A DNA stretch of 64,000 nt, taken from Chloroflexota bacterium (lineage in GTDB: Bacteria > Chloroflexota > Anaerolineae > Anaerolineales > Villigracilaceae). Shown here piece by piece: positions 19,157-31,528 of this stretch. The position numbers and the translations under genes were made by a program. The notes beneath the pieces are model-generated. The model had not been told where the DNA came from. It made no database searches and saw nothing but the letters and a program-made list of their open reading frames with translations. The first letter of the stretch is position 1. Each line of letters opens with the position of its first letter. Location: assembly GCA_016213105.1 (NCBI GenBank), contig JACRBN010000019.1, positions 186,001 to 250,000 of the forward strand. Direction: 5' to 3'.

Positions 19157-19206
19157 TATTCCCGTGAAAATCCCGCAAGCAGGGCTTGCGGAGTCCATAT
19201 CCCCTG

Positions 19207-19212
19207 TATAAT
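19207..19212 (+). promoter_or_regulatory. Predicted -10 box of a leaderless glnE-like transcript
   Basis: TATAAT ends 6 bases before the ATG at 19219, so the first transcribed base should be at or next to the start codon. The -35 match is weak (TTGCGG at 19186-19191). Confidence 0.55.
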
Positions 19213-19218
19213 CGCGTC

Positions 19219-22200
19219 ATGGATATTCAACTCCCAGCGAATCTTGCGGATCCTGCCTCTGCGGCGCGGCGCATTCAACGCTTGCAGAATGCACAGCCGC
19301 GCGACTTCCCCATTGTGTTTCAACACCTGTTCGCCGCGTTGGAAGCGGCTGCCGACGCCGACCGCTCGCTGACCTATTTCGAGCGCTTCACCGAAAACTA
19401 CGGCGCGGAGTTGTTCCACGTGCTGGAGAAGAATCCGCGCGTGATCGAGATCCTGGTCACGCTCTTTTCGGCCAGCCAGTTCCTGACCGAGATCCTGCTG
19501 CGCAACCCGCAGTCGCTGTCGCTGCTGTTGGATCGTCAGACGCTGACCCAGCGCAAGACGGTGGAGCAGTTCCAGGACGAGGCCGAGGCGGCGGGTACGG
19601 GAGCAGGTGACAGGTCAGGGTTCAACCGCTATCAGCACGGGGAGCTGCTGCGCATCGGCGTGTGCGACTTCCTGGCGCTGTATGATTTCCCCACCGTGGT
19701 TTCGCAGCTTTCGCGCATGGCCATCGGCCTGACGCGCGCCTGCCTGCACTACGCCTCGCGCCAGACGGGAATTTCCACCAGCGGCTTCGTCGTGCTGGCG
19801 ATGGGCAAACTGGGCGGGCGCGAGTTGAATTACAGTTCCGACATCGACCTGCTTTTTCTGGCCAGGGATGATTCGGTCGACTACATCCCGCTGGCGCAGA
19901 AGTTGATTGACCTGCTGTCTGCTTCCACTTCGCAGGGATTCCTGTACCGCGTGGACTTGCGCCTGCGCCCGTGGGGCAACGACGGTCTTTTGGTGCCGAC
20001 GGTGGGCGGCTACATGCGCTACATCGAGAAGAACGCGCGGCTGTGGGAAAAACAGGCGCTCTTGAAGATGCGTCCCATTGCGGGCGACCTGTCGCTTGGG
20101 GAGCAGGTGCGCGAGCGGGTGCAGCCGTACATTTTCAGTGCGCCACCCGGGGAGGTGCGCGCGGGCGTGTTCGCGATGAAGCAGCGCACCGAGGAATTCC
20201 TGCAATCAAAGGGACGCGGCTGGGGCGAGGTAAAACTGGGCGTCGGCTCGATCCGCGACGTGGAGTTCGTGGTGCAGTATTTGCAGCTCACCAACATGAG
20301 CCAGTATCCGCAGATCCGCACGCGCGCCACGCTCAAGGGACTGCGCTTCCTGCGCGCGGCAGGGCTGCTGACCTCGGTCGAGGCGCGGATTTTGTCCGAC
20401 GGCTATACCTTCCTGCGCACCATCGAGCATTATTTGCAAATGATGGATTATCGCCAGACGTACACGCTGCCCTCCGACCCGCCCGCGATTGCCTTCCTGG
20501 CGCGGCGGCTGGGATTTGCTTCTGGCGGGAGTTTCGTCGAGCGCTACCAGGAGCATTGCCAGGCCATCCGCGAAATCTACCTGCGTTACGTGGGAAATGA
20601 ATCCACGCCCGCGGAGTTGCCGTCCGTGAGCCGTCACATCGCGCGCATGGATGTGTCCTACACCAAAACCTTCACCCCCGAGGAGATTCACCGTCACGCG
20701 GAACTTGCGCAAAAGTTGAACGAGAAAACCCCCGCCGTGGTCGATGCGATTCCGCTGGCGCAGGACACTTGGCGCGTGTCCATCGTCGGCTACGACTACC
20801 CGGGCGAACTGTCCATCATTTGCGGGTTGTTCTTCGTGTATGGCTTCGATATTCTCGACGGCAGTGTGTTCACGTATGAGCCTGCGCAGGCAAGCCCATC
20901 GGGGACGCGCGCGCGCAAGGGCAAGCCTGTTCAGCCCGCCCCCGACACGCGCCAAAAGATCGTGGACGTGTTCACGGTCAAGTCGGTCTTCTTCGAGCCG
21001 CCCGGCAGCGTCATCTGGGAAACGTACACGCAGGACATGTTCGCGCTGCTGGCCCTTTTCCGCGAGGGCAAACGGCGCGAGGCGCGCGGTCAACTGGCGA
21101 AGCGGGTGGGGGCGGCCTTCCAGTCGGTGCCAGGCAGGGTCGCTCCGCTGCTGCCCATCGACATCGAGATCGACAATGAAACCTCCGACCGCTACAGCGT
21201 GCTGCGCATCGATGCGCCCGACACGGTCGGCTTCCTGTACGAGTTCACCAACGCGCTGGCCTTTACGCGCACGGACATTGTGCGCGTGAATGTGAGTTCC
21301 GAAGGCAATCGCGTGCATGACATTTTGTACGTCACCGACGCGCATGGGATGAAGATCGTCGCGCCCGAGAAGCAGCGCGAACTGCGCGCGGCGGTGGTGC
21401 TGATCAAGCATTTCACGCACCTGCTGCCGAACTCGCCCAACCCCGAATCCGCGCTGCTGCACTTCCGCGAATTCCTGGAGCAGCTCTTCAAACGTCCCAA
21501 CTGGCCCGATGAAATCACGTCGCTCGAAAACACCGAAGTGCTGCGCGCGCTGGCGCGACTGCTGGGTGTCAGCGACTTCCTCTGGGACGACTTTTTGCGG
21601 ATGCAGTATGCGAATCTCTTCCCCGTGGTGCGCGACATGGATGCATTATCCACGGCCAAGCCGCGCGCCCAACTCGAAGCGGAACTGGCTCACGCGCTCG
21701 CCTCGGGCAGCGTCGGCGGGCTGGCCTATCCCGACTGGCGCGCCGCGCTCAACGCCTTCAAGGATCGTGAACTCTTCCGCATCGACATGCGCCACATCCT
21801 CGGGCTGACGGGCGAGTTCTGGGATTTCGCCGCCGAGTTGACCGAACTGGCCGAAGTGGTCATCGCCGCGGCTTTCACGCGCGGAGAATTTCCGCCTGCG
21901 CGGATGGCTGTCCTGGCGCTGGGCAAATGCGGCGGGCGGGAACTGGGATTTGCCTCCGATATTGAGTTGATGTTCGTGTACGACGAGCAGGCCGACGGGG
22001 CGAAATCGGGCGATGCGTACGAAAAATTCGTGCGCGATTTTGTGTCCACCATCCAGGCGCGGCAGGAGGGCATCTTCCAGATCGATTTGCAGCTGCGGCC
22101 GTACGGCAAAGCAGGCAGCCTGGCGGTTTCGCTGGAAAGTTTCCGCCGCTACTACGCGCCGACGGGGCCTGCCTGGGCCTACGAGCGCCAGGCGCTGGTC

Positions 22201-22734
22201 AAGCTGCGGCCCATCGCAGGCGACCTGACCCTCGGCCAGGAGCTCTGCGCCCTGCGCGATGAGTACACCTACGCCGCGGGCGCCTTCGATGTGACCGCCA
22301 TGCGCGCCATGCGTGAGCGCCAGGTGCGGCACCTCGTCACGGGCGGAACCTTCAACGCCAAGTACAGCCCGGGCGGATTGGTGGATGTCGAGTATCTGAT
22401 CCAGGGCTTGCAGATCGATCACGGCGCGGAACGCGCGTCGGTGCGCGCGACCAACTCGCGCGAGGCGATGGCTGCGCTGTACGAGGCGGGCATCCTCTCG
22501 AAGGAAGATTATGACCGCCTGCGCAAGGCGCACACCTTCCTGCACTGGCTGATCGATTCCCTGCGCGTGGTGCGCGGCAACTCGAAGGACATCACCGTTC
22601 CGCGCTACGGCAGCGACGAGTTCGCCTTCCTCGCGCGGCGTCTGCGCTACGAAAGCGATCTCGACCGCCTGCGCGAGGATTTGGCGCGCTATCCGCACGA
22701 TGTGGTGGAGATCAATCAGCGATTGCTGGGGTAG
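19219..22734 (+). CDS. glnE: GlnE-like glutamine synthetase adenylyltransferase with two internal ACT domains
   Basis: This 1171-residue protein has the two-halved GlnE layout, so it is expected to add AMP to, and remove it from, the GS tyrosine. The N-terminal transferase half has GKLGGRELNYSSDIDLLF (about 196-213), DLRLRPWGNDG and SIRDVEFVVQYLQL. The C-terminal half has GKCGGRELGFASDIELMF (about 900-917), DLQLRPYGKAG and LVDVEYLIQGLQ. Between them lie two ACT domains, about 516-600 and 657-735, as at the end of the PII uridylyltransferase GlnD. The second metal Asp of the C-terminal half is Glu (SDIEL). ATG at 19219 follows a TATAAT by 6 bases. It is divergent from glnA. The ACT pair could sense glutamine directly. 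Confidence 0.88.
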   Translation: MDIQLPANLADPASAARRIQRLQNAQPRDFPIVFQHLFAALEAAADADRSLTYFERFTENYGAELFHVLEKNPRVIEILVTLFSASQFLTEILLRNPQSLSLLLDRQTLTQRKTVEQFQDEAEAAGTGAGDRSGFNRYQHGELLRIGVCDFLALYDFPTVVSQLSRMAIGLTRACLHYASRQTGISTSGFVVLAMGKLGGRELNYSSDIDLLFLARDDSVDYIPLAQKLIDLLSASTSQGFLYRVDLRLRPWGNDGLLVPTVGGYMRYIEKNARLWEKQALLKMRPIAGDLSLGEQVRERVQPYIFSAPPGEVRAGVFAMKQRTEEFLQSKGRGWGEVKLGVGSIRDVEFVVQYLQLTNMSQYPQIRTRATLKGLRFLRAAGLLTSVEARILSDGYTFLRTIEHYLQMMDYRQTYTLPSDPPAIAFLARRLGFASGGSFVERYQEHCQAIREIYLRYVGNESTPAELPSVSRHIARMDVSYTKTFTPEEIHRHAELAQKLNEKTPAVVDAIPLAQDTWRVSIVGYDYPGELSIICGLFFVYGFDILDGSVFTYEPAQASPSGTRARKGKPVQPAPDTRQKIVDVFTVKSVFFEPPGSVIWETYTQDMFALLALFREGKRREARGQLAKRVGAAFQSVPGRVAPLLPIDIEIDNETSDRYSVLRIDAPDTVGFLYEFTNALAFTRTDIVRVNVSSEGNRVHDILYVTDAHGMKIVAPEKQRELRAAVVLIKHFTHLLPNSPNPESALLHFREFLEQLFKRPNWPDEITSLENTEVLRALARLLGVSDFLWDDFLRMQYANLFPVVRDMDALSTAKPRAQLEAELAHALASGSVGGLAYPDWRAALNAFKDRELFRIDMRHILGLTGEFWDFAAELTELAEVVIAAAFTRGEFPPARMAVLALGKCGGRELGFASDIELMFVYDEQADGAKSGDAYEKFVRDFVSTIQARQEGIFQIDLQLRPYGKAGSLAVSLESFRRYYAPTGPAWAYERQALVKLRPIAGDLTLGQELCALRDEYTYAAGAFDVTAMRAMRERQVRHLVTGGTFNAKYSPGGLVDVEYLIQGLQIDHGAERASVRATNSREAMAALYEAGILSKEDYDRLRKAHTFLHWLIDSLRVVRGNSKDITVPRYGSDEFAFLARRLRYESDLDRLREDLARYPHDVVEINQRLLG

Positions 22735-22764: not shown

Positions 22765-22792
22765 TTGACACATCTTGCATATCGAGTAGAAT
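22765..22792 (+). promoter_or_regulatory. Promoter of the arginine operon
   Basis: TTGACA (22765-22770) and TAGAAT (22787-22792) are 16 bases apart. The start of transcription is expected at about 22799-22803, at or just before the ATG of the Arg leader peptide. Confidence 0.75.
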
Positions 22793-22802
22793 ACCGCCCA
22801 AC

Positions 22803-22907
22803 ATGTTCAGCCCCTTTGCACTGCCGCGTACCCGTCGTCCGCAGCCCACTTCCCAGAGAAGGTCGGGAGCTTTTCGTTTGGATGACGTGAACGCCAAGGT
22901 GCGTTGA
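22803..22907 (+). CDS. argL: Arginine-rich leader peptide of the arg operon attenuator
   Basis: A 34-codon ORF starts almost at the predicted 5' end of the transcript and precedes a strong terminator before argG. The peptide begins [15 protein letters not shown] and holds seven arginines, including R-T-R-R, Q-R-R and a final V-R before the stop. The codons are CGT five times plus AGA and AGG. The ORF has no recognisable ribosome-binding site, consistent with leaderless initiation. Its control codons CGT-CGT (22833-22838) lie in one arm of a stem that competes with an antiterminator. The reading is direct. The regulatory role follows the classical model of ribosome-mediated attenuation and has not been tested. 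The symbol is by analogy. Confidence 0.75.
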
Positions 22908-22958
22908 CAGATACGCACAGGTCAACCAAAACAGCCCTCCTTCTCGGAGGGCTGTTTT
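22826..22958 (+). promoter_or_regulatory. Transcription attenuator of the arg operon
   Basis: Hand pairing gives three competing structures. Stem 1:2 joins 22826-22829 and 22833-22840 (the tandem Arg codons) to 22891-22894 and 22880-22887. Stem 2:3 joins 22876-22886 and 22865-22871 to 22921-22932 and 22933-22938, with a mismatch and bulges. Stem 3:4 is a perfect 13-bp terminator, 22928-22940 with 22946-22958, followed by TTTTTATTTT. Ribosome stalling at Arg codons would break 1:2, allow 2:3 and prevent termination. A small hairpin GTGCG/CGCAC (22899-22903, 22914-22918) carries the leader stop codon in its loop. Confidence 0.75.
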
Positions 22959-22971
22959 TATTTTCCAATCT

Positions 22972-23021
22972 GGAGTCCCGAAGCTTGCTTCGGGAAATGC
23001 GGGAGCTTGCTCCCGCACTCC
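22972..23021. repeat. Double-hairpin repeat with GGAGT/ACTCC ends
   Basis: GGAGT and ACTCC bound hairpins CCCGAAGC/GCTTCGGG and GCGGGAGC/GCTCCCGC. It lies between the attenuator terminator and argG. Confidence 0.8.
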
Positions 23022-23041
23022 AAAAACTAACAGGAGAAAAA

Positions 23042-24313
23042 ATGAGTTCCAAACCAAAACCGCACGTGAAGAAAGTCGTCCTCGCCTATTCGGGTGGACT
23101 GGATACATCCGTGATCGTCCCGTGGCTGAAAGAGAACTACGGCTGTGAAGTCGTTTGCTTTTGCGCGGACGTGGGTCAGGGTGACGAAGATATGGGGGGA
23201 CTGGAACAGAAAGCCATTAAGAGCGGCGCGAGCCAGTTGATCATGCATGACATGAAGGAAGAATTCGCCAGCGATTATCTCTTCCCGATGCTCAAGATGG
23301 GATCGGTCTATGAGCACAAGTATTTGCTCGGCACGTCTGTTGCCCGTCCGCTGATCGCCAAGCATCTTGTGGACGTGGCGCACGAAGTCGGTGCGGACGC
23401 GATTGCGCATGGCGCGACGGGCAAGGGCAACGATCAGGTGCGCTTCGAACTGACCGTCATGGCGCTCGACCCGCGCTTGAAGATCATTGCTCCGTGGCGC
23501 GAATGGGAAATCCGCTCTCGTGAAGATGCGATTGCCTATGCCGCCAAGCACAACGTGCCCGTGACTGCCACTATCAAGTCCATTTACAGCCGCGACTCGA
23601 ATCTGTGGCATCTCTCGCATGAAGGCGGTCTGCTCGAAGACCCGTGGAACGAGCCTGAAGAGATCATGTATCAAATTTCCACCTCGCCTGAAAATGCGCC
23701 CGATGAAGCCGCTTATGTCGAGATCGAATTCGAGAGCGGCAACCCCGTCGCGGTCAACGGCGAAAAACTTTCGCCCGCGAAGATCGTCGAGACGCTTAAC
23801 GCCATTGGCGGCGCGCATGGCATTGGCCGCGTCGATCTCGTGGAGAATCGTCTCGTCGGTATGAAGTCGCATGGGGTGTACGAGACCCCAGGCGGCACGA
23901 TCCTGCTTTATGCGCATCGCGAACTCGAGTCGCTCGTGCTCGACCGCGAAACCATGCACTTCAAGGAAATGGTCGCGGTGAAATATTCCGAGCTTACCTA
24001 CAACGGCCTGTGGTTCACGCCTCTGCGCGAAGCCATCGACGCCTTCGTCAATTCCACGCAGGGCCCTGTCACGGGCACGGTGCGCCTCAAACTGTACAAG
24101 GGCAACATTATCACCGCGGGTAAAAAATCGCCGTTCAGTTTGTATCGCGAAGACTTCGCCACGTTCGGCCAGGAAGATGTCTACGACCAGAGTCATGCCG
24201 AAGGTTTCATTCGCCTGTTTGGCCTGAGCATGAAAGTCCGCGCCATGAATGGTCTGCCTGTCTCTGGCCTCGATATGCCGAAGCCTGATTATTCGAAGTT
24301 CAAACGTGATTAA
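23042..24313 (+). CDS. argG: ArgG, argininosuccinate synthase
   Basis: ArgG condenses citrulline and aspartate with ATP. The 423-residue protein has the N-type ATP pyrophosphatase loop [10 protein letters not shown] near residues 14-23, followed by the family segments [13 protein letters not shown] and [17 protein letters not shown]. The start ATG at 23042 has AGGAGAAAA just upstream. A longer in-frame opening starting at 22904 is rejected because it runs through the terminator and repeat. It is the first enzyme gene after the Arg attenuator and is followed by argH. Confidence 0.96.
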
Positions 24314-24394: not shown

Positions 24395-24408
24395 GAAACG
24401 GAGACACC

Positions 24409-25788
24409 ATGACCCTCTGGGGCGGCAGATTTACCCAAACCTTAAACTCCCTCGCCTGGGACTTGAATTCGTCCCTGCCTGTTGACCAGCGCATGGCCGT
24501 TCAGGATGTGGATGGTTCCATCGCGTGGGCGGACGCGATCCACGCCGCGGGCATTCTTTCGGATGAAGAACACGCTTCGATCTCCCTCGGGCTTGCCACC
24601 GTCCGAAAAGAATTTTCTTCGGGACAGTTTTCCTTCGTCCCCTCCGACGAAGATATCCACACAGCCGTCGAGCGCCGCCTGACCGAACTGATCGGTGCGA
24701 CCGCTGGCAAGCTCCACACGGGACGCAGTCGCAACGACCAGGTTGCCACCGATTTCCGCTTGTGGATGCTGGGAGCGATTCCCGCGCTGGACGCGGCCTT
24801 GAAGGATTTGCAGTCCGCCTTGGTGGAGCAAGCCGAAAAAGCAGGTGAGACGATCATGCCAGGTTACACCCACCTGCAACGCGCCCAGCCGATCTTGCTG
24901 GCGCACTGGTGGCTGAGTCACTACTGGCCGCTGAAACGCGACCGCTCTCGCCTCACAGATTTAATCCCGCGTGTTTCCATTTTGCCGCTGGGTTCTGGCG
25001 CACTGGCGGGCACACCCATCCCCGTTGACCGCGTTGCACTGGCCGAGTCACTTGGCTTTGCTGAACCTTCACAAAATAGTCTCGACTCCGTCTCTGACCG
25101 CGATTTCGCCGCCGAGTATTTATTCTGTGCCACGCTGACAGGCATTCATCTGAGCAAACTGGCCGAGCAGATCGTTCTGTACACCAGCGCTGAGTTTGGT
25201 TTCTTCGAGCTTTCGGATGCCTTCTCGACAGGTTCAAGTCTCATGCCGCAGAAGAAGAATCCTGATGTGTTTGAGTTGACGCGCGGCAAGGCGGGCACGT
25301 TGATCGGCATGTTGACAGGTCTGCTCGCCACGCTCAAAGGGCTGCCATCGACCTACGATAAAGACTTGCAGGAAGACAAAGCGCCCGTCTTCGCGGCAAC
25401 CGATACGTTGCTCGCGATTCTACCCGTCATCACTGGCGCACTGCGGACGATCAGCGCGAAGCCCGAACGAATGCGCGCCGCGATCGATTCCACGATGATG
25501 GCGACTGACCTGGCGGATTATCTCGTCAACAAGGGAATCCCGTTTCGGGAGACTCACGCGATCGCGGGAAAAGCTGTCCGCTTGGCTGGGGAGAGAAAGG
25601 TCGGGTTGGAGCAAATACCGCTCGAAGCGTATCAGGCTCTCAGTCCCGCGTTTGAAGCGAATGTAGTTCAAGTCTTCGACCCGCTGAAGTCCGTCGAAAA
25701 AAGAAATGCGATTGGCGGCACGAGTCTCCAATCGGTTAAAAATCAGATTGACAGAGTCAAACGACTCCTGTCGTTTGAAAAATCTTAG
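24409..25788 (+). CDS. argH: ArgH, argininosuccinate lyase
   Basis: ArgH splits argininosuccinate to arginine and fumarate. The 459-residue protein starts MTLWGGRF, the family N-terminus, and contains HTGRSRNDQVATD and the fumarase-superfamily signature GSSLMPQKKNPD with the mobile catalytic Ser. The start at 24409 was chosen over an upstream frame that runs through the repeat. The last codons, RVKRLLSFEKS, overlap a double-hairpin repeat, so the natural C-terminus may have been replaced by repeat-encoded residues. Confidence 0.96.
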   Translation: MTLWGGRFTQTLNSLAWDLNSSLPVDQRMAVQDVDGSIAWADAIHAAGILSDEEHASISLGLATVRKEFSSGQFSFVPSDEDIHTAVERRLTELIGATAGKLHTGRSRNDQVATDFRLWMLGAIPALDAALKDLQSALVEQAEKAGETIMPGYTHLQRAQPILLAHWWLSHYWPLKRDRSRLTDLIPRVSILPLGSGALAGTPIPVDRVALAESLGFAEPSQNSLDSVSDRDFAAEYLFCATLTGIHLSKLAEQIVLYTSAEFGFFELSDAFSTGSSLMPQKKNPDVFELTRGKAGTLIGMLTGLLATLKGLPSTYDKDLQEDKAPVFAATDTLLAILPVITGALRTISAKPERMRAAIDSTMMATDLADYLVNKGIPFRETHAIAGKAVRLAGERKVGLEQIPLEAYQALSPAFEANVVQVFDPLKSVEKRNAIGGTSLQSVKNQIDRVKRLLSFEKS

Positions 25789-25836: not shown

Positions 25837-26007
25837 ATGTCTACTGTTGTCTGCCCCGAATGTGAAGCCGAAATTACGTTGGACGCTGGTACGGAAGCGG
25901 GTGAGATCATCGTCTGCTCGGATTGCGGCGTGGATCTCGAAGTGACCGCGCTCGACCCCGCCACGATTCAACTCGCGCCGATGGAACAGGAAGATTGGGG
26001 GGAGTAG
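25837..26007 (+). CDS. lysW: LysW-type amino-group carrier protein
   Basis: This 56-residue acidic protein carries pathway intermediates attached to its C-terminal glutamate, protecting the alpha-amino group during lysine or ornithine synthesis. Cys6, Cys9, Cys27 and Cys30 form the zinc ribbon. The C-terminus is EDWGE, the hallmark to which LysX/ArgX ligates the amino acid. AAAGGAG precedes the ATG. It lies between argH and the ATP-grasp ligase gene, in an operon with an Arg leader, so its cargo here is probably the arginine-pathway glutamate. Confidence 0.95.
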
Positions 26008-26038: not shown

Positions 26039-26905
26039 ATGCAAAGACGATTAAAGATTGGCGTTTTGTTTTCGCGCGTGCGCGTCGAGGAGAAATGGAT
26101 CTTCGGGGCGATGGAAAAGCGCGGCATTGACTTTGACCGACTCGATGACCGCGCCATACATTTCGATTTGAATGACCCTGCGCCGTGGCAACAATATGAT
26201 GCGGTGCTGGAGCGCAGTATCAGTTACAACAGCGGACTGTACGCGTTGCGCCTGCTGAACTCGTTTGGCGTGCCGACCGTGAACACCGCCTCGGTGGCGG
26301 AGATTTGCGGCGACAAGTTGATGACCAGCGCCGTGCTCGCACGTGATGGAGTCCCGCAACCGCATAACGCGACCGCCTTCACGCCCGAGGCCGCGCTCGA
26401 AGCGATTGAAGCGTTTGGGTATCCCGTGGTGCTGAAGCCCGTGGTCGGTTCGTGGGGACGGCTGCTGGCGAAAGTCAACGACCGCGACGCGGCCGAGGCA
26501 GTGCTGGAGCACAAGTCCACGCTGGGTTCGGTGCAGCACTCGGTGTTCTACATTCAAGAGTACATCGCTAAGCCTGGACGCGACATCCGCGCCATCGTCA
26601 TTGGTGACCGCGTACTGACGGCGATGTATCGCAAGTCCGAGCATTGGATCACGAACACGGCGCGCGGCGGCGAAGGCGAGTTGTGTCCCATCACGCCTGA
26701 GATCGAAGACCTATGCCTGCGCGCGGCCAAGTCTGTGGGCGGCGGAGTCCTGGCAATCGATCTGGTCGAACATCCCGAAAAGGGACTGATGGTCAACGAG
26801 ATCAATCACACGATGGAATTCCATACGATGCAACCTGTGAGCGGGATCGATATCGCGGGGGAGATCGTGGAATATGTGGTGAGGGTGGCAAGGACAAAAC
26901 GTTGA
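26039..26905 (+). CDS. lysX: LysX/ArgX-type ATP-grasp ligase (LysW ligase)
   Basis: This enzyme attaches glutamate (ArgX) or alpha-aminoadipate (LysX) to the LysW C-terminus with ATP. The 288-residue protein is an ATP-grasp ligase: nucleotide-binding [17 protein letters not shown] at about residues 130-146, [11 protein letters not shown], and metal-site [13 protein letters not shown]. The NHTMEF segment resembles Thermus LysX, whereas the operon context argues for glutamate. A dual-specificity enzyme is possible. It starts 31 bases after lysW. Confidence 0.9.
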
Positions 26906-26938: not shown

Positions 26939-27973
26939 ATGACTACGGTATCTATCATCGGCGGTTCTGGATATGGCGGCGGGGAGTTGTTGCGGTTGTT
27001 GTTGGGGCATCCCAACGTGGAAGTAAAGCAGGTGACGTCGCGCTCGCATTTGGGCGAGTACGTGTACCAAGTCCACCCGAATCTGCGCAAGCGGACTCAA
27101 CTCAAGTTCAGCGATCCTGCCGCGCTGGAGCCTGTCGATTTGCTGTTCCTGGCTCAACCGCATGGACAGGCACAGCATCATATCGAGGAATATGCCAAAC
27201 TTGCGCCGAAGATCATCGATCTGGCGGCGGATTTCCGTCTGCGCGACGCGGCGTTTTACGAGAAGTGGTACGGTGAAAAACATGCCGCGCCCGAGTGGTT
27301 GAGCAAGTTTGTGTATGGCCTGCCAGAACTTCACCGCGCCGAAATGGCGACGGCGAGTTACGTCAGCGGGGTGGGATGCAATGCCACGGCGAGCAATATC
27401 GCGTTGTTGCCGCTGGTCAAAGCGGATTTGATCGATCTGTCCGCCCCCGTGATTATTGAGATCAAAGTAGGTTCGTCGGAAGGCGGGGCAGAGGGGAATT
27501 CGGGCTCGCTTCATGCGGAACGGGCGAATGTGATTCGGACGTTCTCGGCCTTTGGACATCGTCATACCGCGGAGGTGATTCAGGAAATGGGCGTCAAAGA
27601 TGTCTCGCTCACCATGACCGCCGTGGATTTGGTGCGCGGGGTTTTGGCGACGGCTCATGCGAAAGCCAAACCTGGCGTTGCCACGAAAGATTTGTGGAAA
27701 GCCTATCGCGCTGTTGCGAATGAAAATCCGTTCGTGCGCGTGGTCAGGGAACAGCGCGGGATTTATCGCGTCCCTGAGCCGAAGATTTTGGCGGGTTCAA
27801 ATTATGTCGACCTCGGATTCGAACTGGATGAAAGTAACGGTCACATCGTGTCCATGTGTGCGATAGATAATCTCATGAAGGGCGCGTCTGGCTCAGCGGT
27901 GCAGTGCATGAATTTGATGTTGGGCTGGGATGAGACGCTGGGGTTGGAGTTTGCGGGATTGCACCCGATATAA
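26939..27973 (+). CDS. argC: LysY/ArgC, [LysW]-aminoacyl phosphate reductase
   Basis: This NADPH-dependent reductase turns the LysW-bound acyl phosphate into the semialdehyde. The 344-residue protein has the Rossmann loop IIGGSGYGGGELLRLLL at about residues 6-22 and the catalytic Cys in GVGCNATASN. SSEGGAEGNSGSLHAER belongs to the LysY branch rather than classical ArgC. ATG 26939 was preferred over TTG 26936 because AGGAG at 26925-26929 is 9 bases upstream. The gene follows lysX with a 33-base gap. Confidence 0.93.
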   Translation: MTTVSIIGGSGYGGGELLRLLLGHPNVEVKQVTSRSHLGEYVYQVHPNLRKRTQLKFSDPAALEPVDLLFLAQPHGQAQHHIEEYAKLAPKIIDLAADFRLRDAAFYEKWYGEKHAAPEWLSKFVYGLPELHRAEMATASYVSGVGCNATASNIALLPLVKADLIDLSAPVIIEIKVGSSEGGAEGNSGSLHAERANVIRTFSAFGHRHTAEVIQEMGVKDVSLTMTAVDLVRGVLATAHAKAKPGVATKDLWKAYRAVANENPFVRVVREQRGIYRVPEPKILAGSNYVDLGFELDESNGHIVSMCAIDNLMKGASGSAVQCMNLMLGWDETLGLEFAGLHPI

Positions 27974-28119: not shown

Positions 28120-28935
28120 ATGGCTGAATCAATTATCGTTGTCAAACTCGGCGGCACAGAAGGCGTGGATTTTTCCGCGATCTGTCAGGATGCCGTGGAA
28201 TTGTTGAAGCAGGGCAAGCGCCTTGTGTTTGTGCATGGCGGGTCGGCGGAAGCAAATGCGTTGGGCGAAGGTCTCGGTACGCCGCCGAAGATGATCACGT
28301 CGCCTTCGGGATATACGTCACGTTATACAGACCGCAAGACTCTGGAGATCTTTTTAATGGCGGTGAATGGCAAGGTCAATTCGTTGTTGACGGAGCAGTT
28401 GCAAATGCTGGGAGTCAACGCGTTTGGGTTGTGCGGACTGGACGGAAAGTTAATTCAAGCCACACGCAAGGAATCCGTGCAGAGCATTAAGAACGGCAAG
28501 CGCAAGATCATCCGCGATGATTACACGGGGAAGATCGAGGCGGTCAACAGTGAGTTGCTGATGATGTTGCTCAATGCGGGTTATCTGCCAGTCATCGCTC
28601 CTGTGGCAGTCAGCGAAAAAGGCGAGGCGTTGAATGTGGACGCGGATCGCGCCGCGGCGATGGTCGCGTCCGCGCTCAAGGCGGAGACGTTGCTGTTGCT
28701 GACGGCAGTCCCTGGGTTGATGAAGAACTTCCCAGACGAGTCAACGCTCATTCGGCAACTATCGCAGAGTCAACTTGGGGCGGCGGGTGAGGCGGCGCAG
28801 GGTCGCATGAAGAAGAAGGTGCTCGGCGCGGATGAAGCGCTCAAGGGCGGAGTCGGTCGCGTTATCATTGCGGATGGGCGAATCCAAAATCCGATCTCTA
28901 ACGCGCTGACGGGAAACGGAACGGTAATTGCATAA
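28120..28935 (+). CDS. argB: LysZ/ArgB, [LysW]-amino acid kinase
   Basis: This kinase phosphorylates the side-chain carboxylate of the LysW-bound amino acid. The 271-residue protein has the amino-acid kinase fold: VVKLGGTEG near the N-terminus, FVHGGSAEAN, ALNVDADRAAAMVA, and a C-terminal GGVGRVIIADGR. The start ATG at 28120 follows GGAGAA and matches family length. Longer openings run through the repeat upstream. It acts between lysX and lysY. The LysW-type substrate site cannot be told apart from N-acetylglutamate kinase by eye, and context decides. Confidence 0.92.
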   Translation: MAESIIVVKLGGTEGVDFSAICQDAVELLKQGKRLVFVHGGSAEANALGEGLGTPPKMITSPSGYTSRYTDRKTLEIFLMAVNGKVNSLLTEQLQMLGVNAFGLCGLDGKLIQATRKESVQSIKNGKRKIIRDDYTGKIEAVNSELLMMLLNAGYLPVIAPVAVSEKGEALNVDADRAAAMVASALKAETLLLLTAVPGLMKNFPDESTLIRQLSQSQLGAAGEAAQGRMKKKVLGADEALKGGVGRVIIADGRIQNPISNALTGNGTVIA

Positions 28936-28990: not shown

Positions 28991-29004
28991 AAAAAAGAGG
29001 AACC

Positions 29005-30171
29005 ATGAATTTTGCTGAAATTGAAAACAAACACACTTCAGGCGTGTATGCCAAGCAGGCGCTGACCATTGTCCGCGGGCAAGGCGCGTCATTGTTCGAT
29101 GTGGACGGCAACGAATATCTGGATTGCTCGTCGGGACATGGCGTCGCCAATCTCGGTCACGCCCACCCGAAAATTGCGGAGGCGCTCTACAAGCAGGCGA
29201 ATACGCTGATTACTTTGTTCGAGTCATTTCCCAACGATCAGCGCGCCATGCTGATGGAAAAGATCACGGCGTTGGTTCCTGGCATGGACAGAGTCTTCTT
29301 CTGCAACTCGGGCACGGAAGCGGTGGAGGCGGCGTTCAAGTTTGCGCGCATTTCCACGGGACGCAAGAACTTCATCGCGGCGATGCGCGCGTTTCATGGA
29401 CGGACGTTCGGTTCGCTCTCGGCCACTTTCAACAAAAAATATCGCGAAGGCTTTGAGCCATTGTTGCCTGGCGTTTCGCATGTGGCGTACAACAATATCG
29501 AAGCATTGGACAAAGCCGTAAATGAAGAAACCGCCGCTGTGATCTTGGAAGTGGTGCAGGGCGAGGGCGGTGTGTATCCCGCAAGTTTGGAGTATGTTCA
29601 CGCGGTGCGGCGGATCTGCGATGAACGCGGTGCGTTGTTGATCGTGGATGAAATCCAAACGGGCTTTGGTCGCACGGGTAGGATGTTTGCGATTCAACAT
29701 TTTGGTGTTACACCCGATCTGCTGACCTGTGCCAAGTCCATCGCAGGCGGTGTGCCGATGGGTGCGGTGTTGATCGGCGCGAACGTGAAGAATTTGACAC
29801 CTGGTGTGCATGGCTCGACTTTTGGTGGAAATCCGCTTTCGTGCGCGGCGGCCAATGCGGCGCTGGACGTGATGGCGGAGGAAGACCTGCCACGCCAGGC
29901 CGAGGTCAAGGGTGCGTATTTGATGGATCGCTTGAAGCGGATTCAGTCGCCGCACATCCGCGAGGTGCGCGGACTTGGACTAATGATCGGCATCGAGATG
30001 AAGCAGAAGGTCGCGCCGTATCTCAAGGCGCTGCAGGAGAGGAAAATCATTGCTTTGAATGCAGGTATGACGGTGATTCGGCTGCTTCCGCCGTTGGTGA
30101 TTACCTACGAACAGATTGACCGTTTGGTGAACGTGTTGACCGATGCTTTGACGCAAGATGCAAATGACTAA
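29005..30171 (+). CDS. argD: LysJ/ArgD, [LysW]-aminotransferase
   Basis: This PLP enzyme aminates the LysW-bound semialdehyde. The 388-residue class-III aminotransferase contains [31 protein letters not shown] and the cofactor site [12 protein letters not shown]. The Schiff-base Lys is in [10 protein letters not shown]. The start has AAGAGG upstream. Its stop lies 14 bases inside the start of lysK, so translation is probably coupled. Acetylornithine aminotransferase (ArgD) is the classical homologue; the neighbouring lysW argues for the LysW-bound substrate. Confidence 0.94.
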
Positions 30172-31264
30172 TCAATTACCAATTACCAATTACCAAACAG
30201 CCGAAACACTTATCGGACTCGTCTCGCAATACAGCCCCTCGGGCCAGGAGCACGGCGCAGTGGAATGGCTGGTGTCGCGGATGAAGGCGTTGGGATATGA
30301 TGATGCGTTCGTGGATGCCGCGGGCAATGCTGTCGGTGTGATGGGGCAGGGGCCGCGGCAGGTGGTGTTGCTGGGACATATCGATACGGTACCTGGGGAA
30401 ATTCCTGCGCAAATTGTAGCGGAGCATGCTCCGCCCCTACTGTACGGCCGCGGCTCCGTTGACGCCAAGGGCCCTCTGGCGTGTTTTGTGGATGCGGTGG
30501 CGCAGGTCGGCGTGAAGGATGGCTGGCAGTTCGTGGTCATTGGAGCGATTGAGGAGGAACGCGATTCGGACGGCGCGCGCTTTGTGGCTGATGAATACAA
30601 GCCTGATTTCGCCATTATCGGCGAGCCGAATCAGTGGGATCGAGTAGCGCTGGGATACAAGGGCAGCGCGTGGGCAAACGTGACAGTCAGGCGTGAACAG
30701 GCGCATACCGCCAGCGGCGAGGAGACGGCGGCCGAGGCGGCGGTGGAGGTGTGGTTGAAGGTCAAGGCGTATGTGGAGGCGTTCAACGCGGACAAGCCCA
30801 AAGCATTTGATAAACTCCTGCTCACCCTGCGCGGCATGGAGTCGGACTCGGATGACTTCGAGCAGTGGGCGCGGCTGAAGGTGGGAGTCCGCCTGCCGGT
30901 GGAGGTTTCGCCTGAGGCTTGGTATGAAACATTAAACGAACCCCTAAAGGTCTCGAAGACCTTTAGGGGTTTGGTGGAACCAACAGGCTTCGCCATCCCT
31001 GCCTGGGCGTGCGAAAAAAACACGAAGCTGGTGCGCGCTTTCTTAAACGGAATCCGCTCACAGGGCGGGGAGCCGCGCTTCGTCTACAAAACGGGGACCG
31101 CCGATTTGAACATCGTCGCGCCCGTTTGGCGGTGTCCATCCGTGGTGTACGGTCCAGGAGATTCCGCTTTGGATCATACGCCGAACGAGCACATCGACCT
31201 GGAGGATTATCGCAGGGCGGTGAAAGTGTTGAGCGCTGTCTTGTCGAAGTTAGCCGATGACTGA
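30158..31264 (+). CDS. lysK: LysK/ArgE, [LysW]-lysine/ornithine hydrolase
   Basis: This M20-family metallopeptidase releases the product from LysW, the last carrier-bound step. The 368-residue protein has metal-site motifs LLGHIDTVPG, SVDAKGPLA and IEEERDSDG. It carries two in-frame palindromes: residues around VAEHAPP (30416-30440) and NEPLKVSKTFRGLVEP (30939-30971). The N-terminal codons also contain a triple AATTACC repeat, so the first ~15 residues may be repeat-derived and a later start is possible. It closes the arginine operon, and no classical terminator follows before the ilv promoter. No ornithine carbamoyltransferase gene is in the window. Confidence 0.9.
   Translation: MQMTNQLPITNYQTAETLIGLVSQYSPSGQEHGAVEWLVSRMKALGYDDAFVDAAGNAVGVMGQGPRQVVLLGHIDTVPGEIPAQIVAEHAPPLLYGRGSVDAKGPLACFVDAVAQVGVKDGWQFVVIGAIEEERDSDGARFVADEYKPDFAIIGEPNQWDRVALGYKGSAWANVTVRREQAHTASGEETAAEAAVEVWLKVKAYVEAFNADKPKAFDKLLLTLRGMESDSDDFEQWARLKVGVRLPVEVSPEAWYETLNEPLKVSKTFRGLVEPTGFAIPAWACEKNTKLVRAFLNGIRSQGGEPRFVYKTGTADLNIVAPVWRCPSVVYGPGDSALDHTPNEHIDLEDYRRAVKVLSAVLSKLADD
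30416..30440. repeat. In-frame palindrome in lysK, GTAG...CTAC type
   Basis: The core CGGAGCATGCTCCG (30420-30433) is a perfect 14-bp palindrome bounded by GTAG and CCCCTAC. Its ends resemble the intergenic GTAGGGGC repeat at 43986-44044. Confidence 0.75.
30939..30971. repeat. In-frame palindrome in lysK, 15-bp perfect stem
   Basis: AACCCCTAAAGGTCT at 30939-30953 and its exact complement at 30957-30971 flank a 3-base loop. The length of 33 bases keeps the frame. Confidence 0.85.
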
Positions 31265-31279
31265 AGGCCTCGACGATTT

Positions 31280-31350
31280 TGTAAACATTAGGTTAATCGT
31301 TTACATTTGCGAAAAATGCCCCTTGACGGATTCTCGAATCGGCCTATAAT
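31280..31350 (+). promoter_or_regulatory. Promoter of the ilv-leu operon with upstream inverted repeat
   Basis: TTGACG (31323-31328) and TATAAT (31345-31350) are 16 bases apart. Transcription should begin near 31357. TGTAAAC (31280-31286) and GTTTACA (31299-31305) form an inverted repeat 12 bases apart that ends 17 bases before the -35 box, a position suited to an activator. The protein that binds it is unknown. Confidence 0.75.
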
Positions 31351-31371
31351 CGGGCGAAATACCTACAGCCC

Positions 31372-31476
31372 ATGAATACTTCCCTGTTCACCCTCGTAGT
31401 TGTCGTCCTTCTTGCGGTCCTTATTATTAAGGATCAATTTTCGGTTAGGATGGCAACGGTGAGAGTGCAAAAGTAA
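31372..31476 (+). CDS. ilvL: Branched-chain leader peptide of the ilv-leu attenuator
   Basis: A 34-codon ORF between the promoter and a strong terminator encodes MNTSLFTLVVVVLLAVLII followed by a hydrophilic tail. Residues 8-19 contain 11 branched-chain amino acids in 12. Overall 15 of 34 residues are Val, Leu or Ile. This is the pattern of enterobacterial ilvL/ivbL leader peptides, and all three regulatory amino acids are products of the enzymes downstream. No clear ribosome-binding site is seen in the ~15-base 5' region. The symbol is by analogy; expression is untested. Confidence 0.8.
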   Translation: MNTSLFTLVVVVLLAVLIIKDQFSVRMATVRVQK

Positions 31477-31528
31477 CACACTCACGCAGGAACAAAGAGC
31501 CGCCCTAACCAGGCGGCTCTTTTTGTTT
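31399..31528 (+). promoter_or_regulatory. Transcription attenuator of the ilv-leu operon
   Basis: Three mutually exclusive structures pair by hand. Stem 1:2 joins 31399-31409 (Val-Val-Val-Leu codons) to 31447-31457, 11 pairs with two G-U. Stem 2:3, the antiterminator, joins 31443-31454 to 31499-31510, 12 positions with one mismatch and one G-U. Stem 3:4, the terminator, joins 31494-31504 to 31512-31522 perfectly and is followed by TTTTTG. A further hairpin, 31459-31467 with 31477-31485, holds the leader stop codon in its loop. Stalling at Val/Leu/Ile codons would favour 2:3 and read-through. Confidence 0.85.

Follow-up and report, generated by a model that had tools for sequence, protein, structure and literature searches.

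Organization of the argG leader and its operon

All coordinates refer to the window, a 64,000-nt stretch of the genome of a Chloroflexota bacterium (assembly GCA_016213105.1, contig JACRBN010000019.1, positions 186,001 to 250,000 of the forward strand). A promoter, a leader ORF, and a terminator lie between the end of a glnE-like gene (22734) and the start of argG (23042), and the genes from argG to a lysK-type deacylase gene form a presumed arginine operon relying on the LysW carrier route. The features, with the leader segments as predicted, are the following:

22765–22792, + strand: sigma-70-type promoter, 11/12 matches (TTGACA at 22765–22770, 16-nt spacer, TAGAAT at 22787–22792)
22803–22907, + strand: leader peptide ORF of 34 codons, seven of them Arg (ATG at 22803, TGA at 22905–22907)
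22827–22838, + strand: putative core sensing codons CGT-ACC-CGT-CGT (Arg-Thr-Arg-Arg), from conservation of the core Arg in related leaders
22833–22869, + strand: protector (segment 1), from the minimum-energy fold and pairing in relatives
22856–22886, + strand: segment 2, 5' strand of the antiterminator (core GAGAAGG at 22856–22862; extension GGG at 22865–22867 plus 22869–22886)
22921–22945, + strand: segment 3, 3' strand of the antiterminator (core CCTTCTC at 22939–22945), overlapping the 5' arm and loop of the terminator
22928–22958, + strand: intrinsic terminator with a perfect 13-bp stem (22928–22940 with 22946–22958), loop TTCTC, and U-rich tail (TATTTT), conserved ahead of argG in relatives
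23042–24313, + strand: argG, argininosuccinate synthase, first gene of the operon (Pfam PF00764, PF20979)
24406–25788, + strand: argH, argininosuccinate lyase (Pfam Lyase_1, ASL_C2)
25837–26007, + strand: lysW/argW carrier protein gene (TIGR01206 above cut-off)
26039–26905, + strand: lysX/argX-type ligase gene (TIGR02144)
26939–27973, + strand: argC-type reductase gene (TIGR01850)
28123–28935, + strand: argB/lysZ-type kinase gene (NF010659)
28999–30171, + strand: argD/lysJ-type aminotransferase gene (TIGR00707)
30158–31264, + strand: lysK-type deacylase gene, end of the presumed operon (NF003367)

A sequence-only reading of this DNA had reported the promoter, the 34-codon ORF with its seven Arg codons, and the 13-bp terminator before argG, and all three were found where it had placed them. 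Codons 9, 11, and 12 of the leader ORF are CGT, the last two forming a CGT-CGT tandem at 22833–22838.

Two neighboring elements were also recorded. The double hairpin between the putative attenuator and argG (22969–23025) is a REP-like dispersed element, of which six more imperfect copies (77–93% identical over approximately 29–57 nt) occur in the same genome; other inverted repeats often occupy this spot in relatives. The upstream glnE-like adenylyltransferase gene (19186–22734) matches GlnE twice and GlnD_UR_UTase twice, and between the halves (residues 660–735) there is a weak match to an ACT-like domain, a part that is unusual for GlnE.

Conservation of the leader across Chloroflexota

Relatives and 80 named Chloroflexota contigs supplied regions upstream of argG, of which 107 were left once exact copies had been removed: 95 with both an ORF and a terminator (the data set used here), one recognized by eye (L037), three near-duplicates, and eight with neither feature. 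In total, 96 of 104 non-redundant Chloroflexota loci, representing many families, have the promoter, ORF, and terminator ahead of argG (L037 included by eye); inspection by eye of the remaining eight (L129 and L131–L137) showed an acetyltransferase gene immediately upstream of argG. The cultured Longilinea arvoryzae KOME-1 (L089) and Anaerolinea thermolimosa IMO-1 (L130) are among the carriers. An Arg-rich ORF and a terminator, whose absence before argG in relatives had been named as evidence against attenuation, are therefore both conserved across many families. Promoters scoring at least 9/12 occur at the equivalent place in 91 of 92 related leaders. In 88 of these 91, the leader ORF starts at the first ATG past the -10 box, which is a test blind to arginine. 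Such an Arg leader with its terminator is a signature that could serve genome annotation.

Members of other Chloroflexota families likewise carry related Arg-rich ORFs ahead of argG, with peptide motifs such as RFRRR (L181), HRRRFRRQ and HRRHLRRR (L182 and L183), KRRRQRRPQ (L186), and HRRRSNRNEGR (L184). A covariance model (R1), whose only structure is the terminator and which is biased toward the family of the window, matched 34 of 298 genomes of the class and 17 of 301 genomes of the phylum; these tallies miss real leaders, as its strict filters pass over some that are recognizable by eye (e.g., G097/L057), and some of its weak matches were other terminators or ilv leaders. No match to the leader was found in plasmids. 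Very short candidate ORFs upstream of argG in family f113 (L197–L199) carry Gly-Arg-Ala-Arg near or at their end (VLVRMPGRAR in L198); these are possibly minimal Arg leaders, and no clear terminator was seen in these three regions.

The leader ATG lies exactly 10 nt past the -10 box in 61 of 92 leaders, with the transcription start site predicted from promoter spacing, and a Shine-Dalgarno-like motif is found in 1 of 92 leaders, compared with 87 of 95 for argG. Transcription would thus begin approximately 3–5 nt ahead of the leader ATG. In the window, the ATG is the first after the -10 box, likewise follows it by approximately 10 nt, and has no Shine-Dalgarno motif, and transcription would start approximately 3–4 nt before it (around 22799–22800). 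Based on this spacing and the missing Shine-Dalgarno motif, the leader transcript is probably leaderless.

Selection on arginine codons

Among 56 representatives, Arg makes up 31% of the leader sequence up to the core; its in-frame density of 3.59 per 15 codons compares with 1.67 in shuffles and with 0.98 and 0.84 in the two other frames. Leaders were partly picked for Arg pairs, so that Arg counts alone are somewhat biased, whereas the first-ATG criterion is not. Tandem Arg codons are present in 90 of 95 leaders (missing in L085, L122, L123, L124, and L138). Among core Arg codons, CGT (133), CGC (36), and CGA (21) predominate over all others (6), such that 190 of 196 are CGU/CGC/CGA, compared with only 47 of 89 Arg codons after the core (Fisher P = 4e-19). 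CGU, CGC, and CGA are normally decoded by one tRNA, with the anticodon ICG. The Arg-x-Arg-Arg core retains arginine through synonymous changes among these three codons, and this comparison of leaders indicates that the ORF is selected for arginine.

Conservation of the peptide could also reflect nascent-chain arrest, in which free arginine or a related metabolite would cause an R-x-R-R-P-x-P peptide to stall the ribosome from within the tunnel, with the stall acting through the same RNA segments. A P-R-x-R-R-P-x-P context is indeed strongly conserved within the window's own family, and the Arg-containing uORF orf34 of Salmonella sits in a leader that is also responsive to ornithine (PMC6386406). 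However, near-universality at the core is confined to Arg (0.93 and 1.00), with the flanking Pro reaching 0.43 and being replaced elsewhere by K, T, A, or other residues (56 representatives), and since flanking residues are not universal, codon reading is favored over a nascent-chain motif. The position and number of Arg also vary among leaders (RR, RRPRR, RRRRR), which fits codon reading rather than a tunnel-binding sequence, and arrest by free arginine would turn a biosynthetic operon on in the presence of arginine. We consider nascent-chain arrest improbable. The peptides themselves resembled no known family: four arginine leader peptides had no Pfam match up to an E value of 10, DUF2618 (PF10940) included.

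Antiterminator pairing and covariation

The sequence-only reading had paired 22865–22886 with 22921–22938 as an antiterminator. This pairing is the outer half of a longer predicted helix whose core, GAGAAGG (22856–22862) with CCTTCTC (22939–22945), had been overlooked. Segment 2 (22856–22886) and 22921–22945 together form one interrupted helix, in which segment 2 is complementary to the 5' arm and loop of the terminator and the antiterminator core pairs with the loop, and as the two structures share the strand 22928–22945, they are mutually exclusive.

Comparison among relatives supports this helix. Segments 2 and 3 of the same leader pair at -16.2 kcal/mol, versus -13.9 kcal/mol with permuted partners, and none of 50,000 permutations matched the energy of the leaders' own pairing (56 representatives, the use of which lowers shared ancestry in permutation tests without removing it). 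At a terminator-loop position that is unpaired in the terminator, the antiterminator pair was G-C 13 times, A-T 12 times, T-A three times, and G-T three times (alignment A1, fixed register). Examples of covarying pairs include CAGGGAAGG/CCTTCCCTG (L026), GTGGAAGG/CCTTCCAC (L032), and CAAGAAGG/CCTTCTTG (L028). Pairing in the predicted antiterminator is poor in some leaders (L128 and L130). Of the stems in which covariation had been suggested as a check, the antiterminator thus covaries, and the protector does so moderately, with a smaller effect than that of the antiterminator (z = -3.9 for its pairing in relatives versus permuted partners).

These results bear on another account, in which the hairpin would be merely the terminator of the upstream glnE, and the ORF a chance reading frame. 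The glnE-like gene does end just upstream on the same strand (22734), but a promoter sits between it and the ORF. Codons and pairings are conserved to a degree far exceeding that in permutation controls, and leaders of different families retain the promoter, first ATG, and terminator. Of the explanations considered, we rate this the least probable, and extremely so.

RNA folding with and without a stalled ribosome

Compared with dinucleotide shuffles, the complete leader has a more stable fold (z = -4.2), whereas the leader minus the 3' arm of the terminator does not stand out from them (z = -0.5). This fold signal stems from the terminator alone; hence, single-sequence folding is weak evidence, its significance was rejected as proof, and the case rests on comparison.

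In the ribosome-free minimum-energy fold of the window leader, the Arg codons at 22833–22841 pair with 22879–22887 around an inner hairpin (22850–22869) that sequesters part of segment 2. The stem 1:2 previously drawn by hand with the tandem CGT-CGT (CGTCGTCC with GGATGACG) is present in this fold. Treating the RNA through the Arg codons and approximately 7–15 nt beyond them as covered by a ribosome makes the antiterminator the fold of lowest energy (-33.6 kcal/mol for RNA extending to the terminator loop).

The same shift was computed across 95 leaders as P(antiterminator), i.e., the probability that the 5' arm and loop of the terminator pair upstream. Its mean was 0.24 for the full leader without a ribosome, peaked at 0.79 when the free RNA started 12–15 nt past the last core Arg codon, and was 0.11 when the free RNA started 30 nt past that codon. 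The median distance from the last Arg codon is 5.5 nt to the start of segment 1 and 19 nt to that of segment 2, the spacing required for switching by a stalled ribosome. In the window sequence, P(antiterminator) was approximately 0.3–0.6 unstalled, varying with the position of RNA polymerase (0.30 in one calculation, 0.56 and above in another), versus 0.88–0.98 with a stalled ribosome; the predicted equilibrium contrast for this sequence alone is modest, and smaller than the average over leaders. When a ribosome is placed on the Arg codons, the folding results yield the proposed three-state logic.

A protein- or metabolite-binding RNA (a riboswitch or T-box-like element) could in principle govern the terminator, with the ORF being incidental, and the conserved RNA segments and the terminator ahead of argG are what such an element would show. 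All Rfam families, however, scored below the gathering score in the window, and loose thresholds gave nothing relevant, with no T-box among the sub-threshold matches. Outside segments 2 and 3, moreover, the conserved part consists of the Arg codons, kept through synonymous CGA/CGC change, while the distal leader varies in length and frame. We regard a binding RNA as very improbable. A T-box leader in particular was rejected: the T-box covariance model gave no match in the window at the gathering score or below it.

Proposed mechanism of attenuation

We consider it very likely that the argG leader senses charged tRNA-Arg, acting as a ribosome-mediated transcription attenuator. The leader has clustered codons for the amino acid made by the operon, an intrinsic terminator between the ORF and the first gene, an antiterminator that excludes the terminator, and a protector placed so that a stalled ribosome could open it. 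Strong comparative evidence thus supports the attenuation logic put forward in the sequence-only reading, by way of a conserved anatomy, conserved Arg codons, covariation in the antiterminator, and a computed switch at the right ribosome position. Translation of the leader ORF is inferred from codon conservation and the position of the first ATG; stalling on Arg codons and read-through are likewise inferred.

According to this model, RNA polymerase would start just before the ATG, and a ribosome would load on the leaderless start and trail the polymerase. When arginine is plentiful, the ribosome would move past the Arg-x-Arg-Arg codons, segment 2 would be covered by the ribosome or re-paired with segment 1, and the terminator would form, ending transcription before argG. 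When arginyl-tRNA is short, the ribosome would stall on the Arg codons, covering segment 1 (approximately 5–6 nt on) but not segment 2 (approximately 19 nt on). Free segment 2 could then pair with the 5' arm and loop of the terminator, such that the terminator would be blocked and the argG-argH-lysW operon transcribed. If initiation on the leader is leaderless, it would offer a clean system for studying the coupling of a 70S-initiated ribosome to RNA polymerase.

Comparison with known systems

Leader-peptide switches are textbook material for tryptophan or histidine, and the classical set comprises the trp, his, leu, ilv, thr, and phe attenuators of Proteobacteria. To our knowledge, arginine is not among the amino acids usually listed as being controlled by leader-peptide attenuation. 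The argG leader shares with classical attenuators a leader ORF enriched in codons for the amino acid that the operon makes, a protector (1:2), an antiterminator (2:3), a terminator (3:4), and the control of biosynthesis, but differs in its amino acid, its probably leaderless ORF start, and its occurrence in Chloroflexota. Arginine would be an unreported specificity within the class of ribosome-mediated attenuators, with what appears from comparison to be a wide range in Chloroflexota. Repression by ArgR/AhrC has the same output (arginine biosynthesis is off when arginine is plentiful), although it acts through a DNA-binding repressor. The fungal arginine attenuator peptide (arg-2/CPA1 uORF) also couples arginine level to an arginine biosynthetic gene through an upstream ORF, but it is eukaryotic and translational, with free arginine sensed via the nascent chain.

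Among bacterial uORFs that sense arginine, the nearest we found is orf34 in the speF leader of Salmonella, which is also an upstream 34-codon ORF with consecutive Arg codons, namely two at positions 12 and 13, where pausing alters downstream RNA structure (PMC6386406). Unlike the argG leader, orf34 controls ornithine decarboxylase rather than arginine synthesis, and works via Rho, RNase G decay, and the speF ribosome-binding site instead of an intrinsic terminator (PMC6386406). Leaderless Cys-rich uORFs have been proposed in mycobacteria (PMC4633059), and cysteine-responsive leaderless short ORFs are described there by Canestrari 2020, as cited in PMC13236596. These share with the argG leader a leaderless uORF rich in one amino acid upstream of the genes for that amino acid, but concern cysteine instead of arginine and another phylum. 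A 2005 survey of Actinobacteria reported arginine operons without a conserved RNA structure upstream, and, for arginine elsewhere, T-boxes only (PMC1262725), while the main text of a 2010 survey of premature terminators mentions neither argG nor Chloroflexi (PMC2965389). Searches of the open-access literature turned up neither an arginine attenuator ahead of arg genes nor any account of attenuation in Chloroflexota.

Regulatory context and related attenuators

Control of the arg operon by ArgR was considered and rejected: ArgR (PF01316) was over cut-off in none of 61 genomes (the window's own and 60 relatives), versus 8 of 14 controls. Conserved arginine attenuation across Chloroflexota families, in genomes without detectable ArgR, would provide a natural test of ArgR replacement. 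We think it slightly better than an even bet that in much of the Chloroflexota a leaderless attenuator sensing arginyl-tRNA has taken the place of ArgR and travels with arginine genes (the argG operon, carA in two genomes, and possibly a lysW operon in one, with ilv attenuators of the same layout alongside), and that 70S-initiated leader-peptide attenuation is general in the phylum.

Arg leaders of a related kind were found by covariance model before carA in two genomes (L170 and L171), to which the carA leader is limited so far. The carA upstream regions of 16 relatives showed no comparable Arg leader, and in several of them carA simply comes after the argB-type gene. No match to carA (PF00988) was obtained in the window's genome or in 44 of 60 relatives, while it was present in 14 of 14 controls. 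Before a separate lysW gene in another genome (L172, G133:C274) lies a degenerate-looking leader, MKAVLVSPRPPEPIHSLSGKAS, with a single Arg and a terminator.

A further candidate attenuator precedes ilvD in the window (31323–31522), comprising a promoter (TTGACG-16-TATAAT), an ORF (31372–31476) encoding MNTSLFTLVVVVLLAVLIIKDQFSVRMATVRVQK, and a terminator (31494–31522). In this leader, CGGTTAGG (from 31442) pairs with CCTAACC in the arm and loop of the terminator, and P(antiterminator) rises from approximately 0.05 to 0.79 once the Val/Leu/Ile codons are covered. Val/Leu-rich leader peptides in the same layout were also found by covariance model before an acetolactate synthase gene in another family of the class, f18 (L152, L156–L160, L163, and L165–L167, around position 1500). 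As ilv leaders of this layout occur both in the window and in f18, attenuation of this layout is not arginine-only in these organisms.
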